Source of the DNA: Oscillospiraceae bacterium | Lineage (GTDB): Bacteria; Bacillota; Clostridia; Oscillospirales; Oscillospiraceae | Length of the DNA: 64,000 bases | Direction of reading: 5' to 3' | NCBI GenBank assembly: GCA_015067885.1 | Contig: SVLO01000006.1 | Span: forward strand, 1-64,000 | Shown here: positions 46,701 through 47,989 of the stretch, one piece after another | How the letters are laid out: each line of letters opens with the position of its first letter | Numbering within the stretch: the first letter of the stretch is position 1 | Made by a program: the position numbers and the translations under genes | The notes under the pieces: generated by a model | What the model saw: only the letters and a program-made list of their open reading frames with translations | Databases searched by the model: none | What the model was told of the DNA's origin: nothing

Positions 46701-46907
46701 CAGCGGCTCGATATACACATGGTCGGCAATGTCCTTGTCGGTCATGATGGTGGCGGGGTTGGAGTTGACCAGAACGACCTCCAGTCCCTCCTCTTTCAGG
46801 GCGCGGCAGGCCTGGGTGCCGGCGTAGTCAAACTCGGCGGCCTGGCCGATGACGATGGGGCCGGAGCCAAGGACAAGAACTTTCTTAATGTCAGCGTATC
46901 TGGGCAT
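43701..46907 (-). CDS. carB: Carbamoyl-phosphate synthase large subunit
   Basis: Makes carbamoyl phosphate from bicarbonate, ammonia and two ATP for pyrimidines and arginine. The 1068-residue protein has both ATP-grasp halves (starts [20 protein letters not shown] and, near residue 560, [20 protein letters not shown]), the oligomerisation domain around residues 405-550, and the C-terminal allosteric MGS-like domain (about 935-1068). It looks intact. It starts at the TAATG overlap with carA. Its usual ammonia supplier, the CarA glutaminase, appears inactive here, so it may rely on free ammonia. Confidence 0.97.
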   Translation of the reverse strand: [1068 protein letters not shown]

Positions 46908-47989
46908 TACTTGGCACCTCCCATAATCTCAACGACGCGGTCAAAGACGTACTTGACTTCCATGGGGCCGGTATTGCCCTCGGGATCGTACTGCATAGTG
47001 AAGCAGTTGGGGCGGGCGTATTTCAGACCCTCCACGCTGCCGTCGTTGACGTTGACGTGGCTGACCGTGGCAACGGCCGCGTCCACGCTGCCCTCCTCCA
47101 CGGCGTAGCCGTGGTTTTGGGCGGTGATGAACACCTTACCCTTTTCCAGGTCGCGGACGGGAATGTTGCCGCCCCGGTGACCGTAGGGCAGTTTCTCGGT
47201 CCTGCCGCCCACGGCAAGGGCCAGCAGTTGGTGGCCCAGACCAAAGCCAAACAGAGGCAGGCTGCTGTCGTAGAGCTTCTTGATTTCCGCAATGATGGCG
47301 GTATTCTCGGCGGGGTCGCCGGGGCCGGGGGACAGCACCACACCGTCGTAGCCGCCGGCCAAAATATCCTCGGCAGCGGTGTTGGCGGGCAGGACGGTCA
47401 CCTTGCAGCCGCGGGCGGTCAGGCCGGCGATGATGCTGTTGGGCACGCCGCAGTCCAGCACGGCGGCGTGGCAGGTCTGCTCACCCCGGGCAGGGATGAC
47501 CTTGGCCTGGCTGCAGGTGACCTCGGCCACCTTCTTCTCCACCCGGTAGGCGCGGAGCTTCTCCATCACCTGGGCGACATTAAAATGCTCCGCACAGGTG
47601 AGCATAGCCATCATGCTCCCCTGGTTGCGGAGTATTCTCGTCAGGGCACGGGTGTCCACACCCTGCACGCCCGCAATATTGTTCTGTTTCAGATAGGTGT
47701 TCAGATCGCCCTGGCAGCGGAAGTTGCTGCCCCGGTCGGACAGGTGACGGACCACCAGGACCTCCACCCAAGTGCGGTCGGACTCCACATCCTCGTCGTT
47801 GACGCCGTAGTTGCCAACCAGGGGATAGGACATGACCACGCCCTGTCCGGCGTAGGCCGGGTCGGTCAGCAGTTCCTGATACCCGGTCATGGAGGTATTG
47901 AACACCAGCTCACAGATCTTTTCTTCCGTGCTGCCGATGCTGGTTCCGGTAAACACGCTACCGTTTTCCAGAATCAAAGTCGCTTTCAT
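46907..47989 (-). CDS. carA: Carbamoyl-phosphate synthase small subunit, glutaminase-inactive
   Basis: A 360-residue protein with the N-terminal CPSase small-chain domain (about 1-150) and a class I glutamine amidotransferase domain (about 172-350). In E. coli CarA the catalytic residues are Cys269, His353 and Glu355. Here the nucleophile elbow reads FGFGLGHQ with Gly250 (codon GGT, 47240-47242) for Cys, and YDPEGNTGP with Asp335 (codon GAT, 46985-46987) for His; Glu337 remains. Both changes abolish the known mechanism. The frame is otherwise whole, so the protein is probably kept as a structural partner of CarB. Start at 47989 fits AAAGGCGGG at nine bases; earlier Mets are less likely. Confidence 0.93.
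   Translation of the reverse strand: MKATLILENGSVFTGTSIGSTEEKICELVFNTSMTGYQELLTDPAYAGQGVVMSYPLVGNYGVNDEDVESDRTWVEVLVVRHLSDRGSNFRCQGDLNTYLKQNNIAGVQGVDTRALTRILRNQGSMMAMLTCAEHFNVAQVMEKLRAYRVEKKVAEVTCSQAKVIPARGEQTCHAAVLDCGVPNSIIAGLTARGCKVTVLPANTAAEDILAGGYDGVVLSPGPGDPAENTAIIAEIKKLYDSSLPLFGFGLGHQLLALAVGGRTEKLPYGHRGGNIPVRDLEKGKVFITAQNHGYAVEEGSVDAAVATVSHVNVNDGSVEGLKYARPNCFTMQYDPEGNTGPMEVKYVFDRVVEIMGGAK

Follow-up and report, generated by a model that had tools for sequence, protein, structure and literature searches.

How does a carbamoyl phosphate synthetase (CPS) obtain its nitrogen when its small subunit, CarA, has lost the residues required for glutamine hydrolysis? This question is raised by a carA–carB pair in a 64,000-nucleotide stretch of contig SVLO01000006.1 from an Oscillospiraceae bacterium, here called the window, for which an earlier note based on the letters alone had claimed that CarA lacks both catalytic residues of its glutaminase. 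In E. coli, glutamine hydrolysis requires both Cys269 and His353 (PMC6245113). The altered CarA is shared by the genome of the window (G000) and two further genomes, G029 and G033, which represent three species of one genus, form a small gut-bacterial lineage and are referred to as the clade. With a probability of roughly 0.8 we consider the bacterial CarAB of the clade to be ammonia-dependent, with CarA kept as a folded partner of CarB that has no catalytic role, within a wider but partial shift from glutamine to ammonia.

The window CarA scores above the curated cut-offs of the profiles PF00988 (167.6 bits, cut-off 27), PF00117 (126.3, cut-off 22.8) and TIGR01368 (405.1, cut-off 307.35). With the CPSase small-chain and the class I glutamine amidotransferase (GATase) domains both present and carB encoded alongside, its domain content and gene neighbourhood are those of a CarA, and the two genes (Table 1) form a genuine pair whose small subunit has probably lost glutamine hydrolysis. 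An in-frame ATG upstream at 48016 offers an alternative start, which yields 369 amino acids. Following carB, frames at 41233-43611 on the (-) strand resemble a capsule regulation trio of chain-length protein, tyrosine kinase and PHP phosphatase, named from the letters alone.

Table 1. Features of the carA–carB locus in the window and further loci in the genus; reference residues are numbered as in E. coli CarA.
Feature	Position or locus	Strand	Remarks
carA, CPS small subunit, 360 aa	46907..47989	(-)	no internal stop; N-terminal CPSase domain retained; catalytic array dismantled
carB, CPS large subunit, 1068 aa	43701..46907	(-)	start overlaps carA stop by one base
Gly250 (GGT), position of nucleophile Cys269	47240..47242	(-)	alignment to E. 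coli CarA
Asp335 (GAT), position of catalytic His353	46985..46987	(-)	alignment; G029 Asn, G033 Asp
Glu337 (GAG), position of Glu355	46979..46981	(-)	alignment; kept
Pro183 (CCC), position of Lys202	47441..47443	(-)	alignment; G033 Thr
Pro221 (CCC), position of Asn240	47327..47329	(-)	alignment
Ala45, position of Ser47	47855..47857	(-)	alignment; Ser retained in 1/3 clade members
Ile276 (ATT), position of His295	47162..47164	(-)	alignment; 'NIP' within GHRGGNIP
GuaA	L160 (G000), L161 (G029), L159 (G033)		
PurF-like gene	L253:12929-14350	(-)	homologues in L254-L257
E. coli-type NagB	L225, L224, L223		three clade members, two without GlmS

The codons and coordinates given in the earlier note for the two catalytic positions are correct, and alignment to E. 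coli CarA, in whose sequence Cys269, His353 and Glu355 were confirmed, places them at Cys269 and His353. The Cys-His-Glu triad of glutamine-dependent CPS (CPS II) is thus replaced by Gly, Asp and Glu in the window CarA. The claim that both catalytic residues are gone stands, but the loss is not confined to them, as Lys202, Asn240 and Ser47 have been replaced as well; we take Lys202 and Ser47 to be part of the glutamine site of E. coli CarA. The change from GHHGGNHP to GHRGGNIP, also pointed out in the earlier note, holds in part: within the genus rows the replacement of His by Ile (GGNHP to GGNIP) is lineage-specific, whereas the Arg of GHRGG is present throughout. The place of His295 is occupied by His in 56 and by Gln in 23 of 79 loci from genome contigs.

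The CarA proteins of G029 and G033 are 92% and 74% identical to the window CarA. In all three clade members Cys269 is replaced by Gly, His353 by Asp or Asn, Lys202 by Pro or Thr and Asn240 by Pro or Gly; Ser47 is replaced by Ala in two. A residual capacity of CarA to hydrolyse glutamine by a different arrangement of residues might be read from the positions of Glu355, Gln273, Gly241 and Gly243, which are retained in all three proteins. However, this is very improbable in view of the substitutions just described and of the segment FGFGLGHQ, which contains neither Cys nor Ser nor Thr, and the assignment of CarA as a non-catalytic partner of CarB is preferred.

A search for carA in 60 genomes including G000 gave matches in 53. 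Among the 36 other members of the genus, two carry the altered CarA (G029 and G033), 28 another full-length CarA, three fragments only (G015, G025 and G034), and three (G002, G009 and G024) gave no match. Ser47, Lys202, Asn240, Cys269, Gln273, His353 and Glu355 are intact in all 27 other genus CarA read (27/28, with G027 and the second copy of G007 left out). In the order, 233 of 295 genomes matched, and all of the 29 best loci besides the window's own have the triad intact, as well as Lys and Asn. The comparison across relatives proposed in the earlier note therefore places the loss in three species and in none of the 27 genus or 29 order proteins read. Among the best 80 of at least 293 loci from genome contigs, 77 keep the triad; as the order and genome-contig samples were ranked by likeness to the window CarA (P0001), these figures are no census of all CarA. 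The three exceptions among these best 80 are L032, whose contig coordinates are those of G029 (goat caecum MAG RGIG1833), L080, which is cut short, and L063. The joint loss of Cys, His, Lys and Asn in the clade is above chance. As a decisive residue, Asn240 was weakened by L079, the single occurrence outside the clade of Pro at this position in a CarA with intact triad, and its weight was lowered for this reason.

The CarA of L063 (L063:4995-6056, MAG Clostridiales bacterium RUI225), which belongs to another lineage, has Val at the positions of Lys202 and His353 and Asp at that of Glu355, with the Cys kept; judging from these substitutions, it likely represents a second origin of an altered glutaminase site. 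It lies just downstream of a 254-aa frame that resembles single-domain NadE and aligns to the E. coli NH3-dependent NadE (30%).

Sequencing or assembly error as the source of the altered residues is ruled out because the change is common to three species. The second, intact carA for which the earlier note had advised a search was not found: PF00988 gave one match in G000, and the window CarA as query one match each in G029 and G033. The broader supposition, that the finding reflects faulty assembly or a second carA hidden in a missing part of the genome, can draw on the 87% completeness of G000. It is hardly credible against three species with the same change and a single CarA match in each, and for two of them the listed completeness is 96%.

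The CarA of the clade diverged fast at the origin of the lineage and is now under purifying selection, the dead domain included, as follows from its distance to the congeners together with present dN/dS values. By domain, the identity between clade and congeners is 63-72% compared to 86-89% among congeners, with a mean dN of 0.244 to congeners versus 0.085 among them. Among 136 CarA columns that do not vary between 11 congeners and E. coli, 12 are changed in all three clade members. Such rapid divergence would also be expected of a decaying operon, in which the constraint on CarA is lost as carbamoyl phosphate synthesis becomes dispensable. However, the frame is undamaged, and the dN/dS ratio (Nei-Gojobori) for G000-G029 is 0.159 (N-terminal domain 0.152, GATase domain 0.165), in agreement with the view of the earlier note that selection keeps the protein. 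The ratios for G000-G033 and G029-G033 are 0.219 and 0.277, the latter slightly above the range of 0.088-0.242 (median 0.166) found in 45 pairs of 10 congeners. Moreover, CarB is conserved. Its identity between clade and congeners is 90.5-91.0% versus 93.2% among congeners, its codon-aligned dN/dS for G000-G033 is 0.097 versus a median of 0.127 in 55 congener pairs, and of the 475 CarB columns in which 11 congeners and E. coli carry one and the same residue, a single one differs in G000 and G033 alike (this comparison excludes G029, whose carB is cut by the contig end). Carbamoyl phosphate is still needed, since segments of its consumers PyrB and ornithine carbamoyltransferase (ArgI) match in all three clade genomes. 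We accordingly regard decay of the operon as improbable; loss of the whole pathway is ruled out by the retention of CarB, PyrB and ArgI. A CarB tree of 14 rows groups G000 with G033 at a support of 84/89, the bootstrap being unsettled.

In the AlphaFold2 model of the window CarA (mean pLDDT 93.2, 36 sequences) the GATase fold is predicted to be kept. The model superimposes on E. coli CarA crystal structures with TM scores of 0.93-0.94 and on human CPS1 with 0.87-0.90 (of the query). Its matches include the C269S crystal 1c30 and 1a9x, which by sequence has Asn at 353.

The hindgut is an ammonia-rich habitat. CarAB of the clade would form carbamoyl phosphate from bicarbonate, two ATP and free ammonia, which would reach CarB without release by CarA. 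Provided that CarA is unable to hydrolyse glutamine, CarAB would as a consequence run on free ammonia. From the sequence comparisons we infer the lack of glutaminase activity, the scaffold role of CarA and, very probably, the use of free ammonia; to this extent the interpretation of the earlier note is supported. In work on CPS1 an alternative ammonia path has been proposed (PMC4655335), and in a Plasmodium GMP synthetase double mutant including the catalytic Cys the Km for ammonium is 6.7-fold lower (PMC9312489). Several points are counted against free ammonia. E. coli CPS requires very high ammonia (PMC6245113); CarB carries no conserved-column change suggesting adaptation to low ammonia, and among its 475 conserved columns no compensating change was found beyond residue 3 in G000 and G033; the Amt ammonium transporter (PF00909) is found in none of the three clade genomes versus two of nine congeners.

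Ammonia might instead be fed to CarAB in trans by another glutaminase, a candidate being a free-standing protein of the window's genome (L135) that resembles class I amidotransferases. This protein has intact GICQG and HPE motifs, and G029 and G033 contain 241-aa frames with GATase matches of the same profile range. It is, however, a Peptidase_C26 by Pfam (134.4 bits) and reaches the cut-off of none of the 21 listed NCBIfam models. As frames comparable in size and in profile range are also present in congeners whose CarA is intact, a protein of this type does not have the appearance of a substitute gained together with the loss in CarA. We judge a supply in trans to be unlikely, if slightly less so than the other alternatives, and retain free ammonia as the probable nitrogen source of CarAB.

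Is CarA an isolated case? Beyond the earlier note, several glutamine amidotransferases are, judged by their sequences, lost in the same species. Family profile searches covered 12 genomes of the genus (three clade members and nine congeners), and an artificial query made up of 18 segments from E. coli was run against ten (three clade members and seven congeners; matches listed to E about 1e-7). CTP synthase (PF06418) was found in none of the three clade members versus all nine congeners. The clade matches the UMP kinase (PyrH) and CMP kinase (Cmk) segments in all three genomes, and cytidine salvage is a possible CTP source; the Udk segment had no match that could clearly be assigned to it, and PF00485, with matches in 12/12, is too broad. 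GMP synthetase (PF00958) occurs in all 12 genomes, and the clade frames measure 380, 389 and 440 aa. For the G000 GuaA, the alignment to E. coli GuaA begins at residue 214, so that the GATase domain is missing; the G029 frame is similar. The G033 protein contains the first half of the domain (PF00117 positions 2-78) and by eye no Cys at the expected place. Seven congeners have a GuaA frame of 519-569 aa with GATase match, G019 a 176-aa frame near a contig start and G006 a 343-aa version only. A half-domain GuaA paralogue stands beside full GuaA in G003, G012, G030 and G036.

PF13522, which covers amidotransferases of the PurF, GlmS and AsnB type, has no match in G000 and G029, three in G033 and at least two in each of the nine congeners. 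Canonical PurF and GlmS segments match within the clade in G033 alone, and each in six of the seven congeners. G033, which is less reduced than G000 and G029, carries PurF, a PurA-like frame and GlmS on its contig 43 (L267, 4,968 bases). Misbinning of this short contig is possible, since its GlmS is 54-55% identical to three and its PurF 56-73% to seven congener copies. The purine operons of G000, G029, G033, G012 and G030 encode a PurF-like protein that starts with MGGFFG and carries Gly where PurF has its Cys, its copies being 80-83% identical to that of G033; the G000 protein reaches 177.6 bits compared to the purF cut-off of 350. In PurF this Cys is the nucleophile. The half-domain GuaA and the PurF-like protein alone do not mark the clade, as congeners whose CarA is intact have them too. 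In the clade, the NagB segment shows 63-64% identity to E. coli (60-63% when the protein is compared) versus 39-46% in those six congeners for which a match was listed, and G000 and G029 show a weaker second NagB-like match (34-35%). NagB can run in the synthetic direction.

The biosynthetic pathways are not simply gone in the clade: besides the segments already mentioned, PurD, PurM, GuaB, GlmM, Upp and GdhA match in all three genomes. The PurH, NadE and AmtB segments gave no clear clade match among the matches listed; for PurH and NadE the query is uninformative because no congener matched either. Four GdhA-like matches in two pairs occur in G000 (contigs 18 and 27) and two in G029. For G000 and G029, the positions of the purine genes come from tblastn. 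G033 PurC and PurM (L255) are 33-35% and 64-66% identical to those of G012 and G030 (L256, L257), with 77-89% for PurD and PurN, and G000 and G029 are 84-96% (PurC) and 90-91% (PurM) identical to G033; replacement of the PurC and PurM genes is possible on the basis of these values.

We tentatively suggest, at a little less than an even chance, that the lineage moved most of the nitrogen supply for its nucleotides and amino sugars from glutamine to free ammonia. CPS would have changed by inactivation of CarA, GMP synthetase by losing the GATase domain in full or by half and PRPP amination by keeping only the PurF-like protein with Gly for Cys, while glucosamine 6-phosphate would be formed by NagB and CTP by an enzyme yet to be recognised or by salvage; FGAM synthase and HisH would still use glutamine. 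The shift is only partial because PurL with its GATase_5 domain keeps the Cys motif GICNG in all three clade members (congener G014 has no PurL match), HisH keeps GICLG and HPE in the two genomes read (G000 and G029), and glutamine synthetase is kept in 12/12 genomes; these points, like the PurF and GlmS of G033, also count against the ammonia dependence of CarAB. In listings and the starts of abstracts, nothing was found on this lineage regarding NagB replacing GlmS, a Cys-less PurF, a GATase-less GMP synthetase or a missing CTP synthase, and no account of a naturally occurring bacterial CarAB whose glutaminase is dead came up in listings of open-licence papers.

If real, the system provides a two-subunit model for how a CPS becomes ammonia-specific, allows a test of whether CarB depends on CarA for more than glutamine use, and directs attention to a lineage in which the part played by glutamine as nitrogen carrier seems much diminished. 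The E. coli CarAB, a CPS II, shares with the clade enzyme the two genes, their order, domains and fold as well as the conserved CarB columns, but possesses Cys269, His353, Lys202 and Asn240, all four of which are replaced in the clade CarA. E. coli CarA mutants of the 1c30 and 1a9x type have ammonia-dependent activity. The same residues are changed in these structures, and G029 likewise has Asn at the His353 position; they are, however, single engineered changes in contrast to the natural combined loss in three species. Single-domain NadE is a bacterial amidation enzyme for which free ammonia has been argued to be the physiological donor; its glutaminase part is absent and ammonia use was proposed to be ancestral (PMC3376133), whereas the clade CarA retains the domain after its catalytic loss. 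Ammonia-only CPS is already known from vertebrates, and the clade CarAB would be its bacterial two-subunit case. Human CPS1 keeps a glutaminase-like domain without the catalytic Cys, with Ser294 instead, and uses ammonia as donor (PMC4655335), a donor that for the clade is deduced. The window CarA shares this hallmark of an ammonia-specific CPS (CPS I) in its human form, a missing Cys in a retained glutaminase-like domain, but not the single fused chain, as carA and carB are separate. The vertebrate CPS I is one N-acetylglutamate-activated chain of 1500 residues compared to the two subunits of the clade CPS. Finally, frog CPS1 keeps the whole triad (PMC4655335), whereas the clade CarA lost Cys, His and Lys together.
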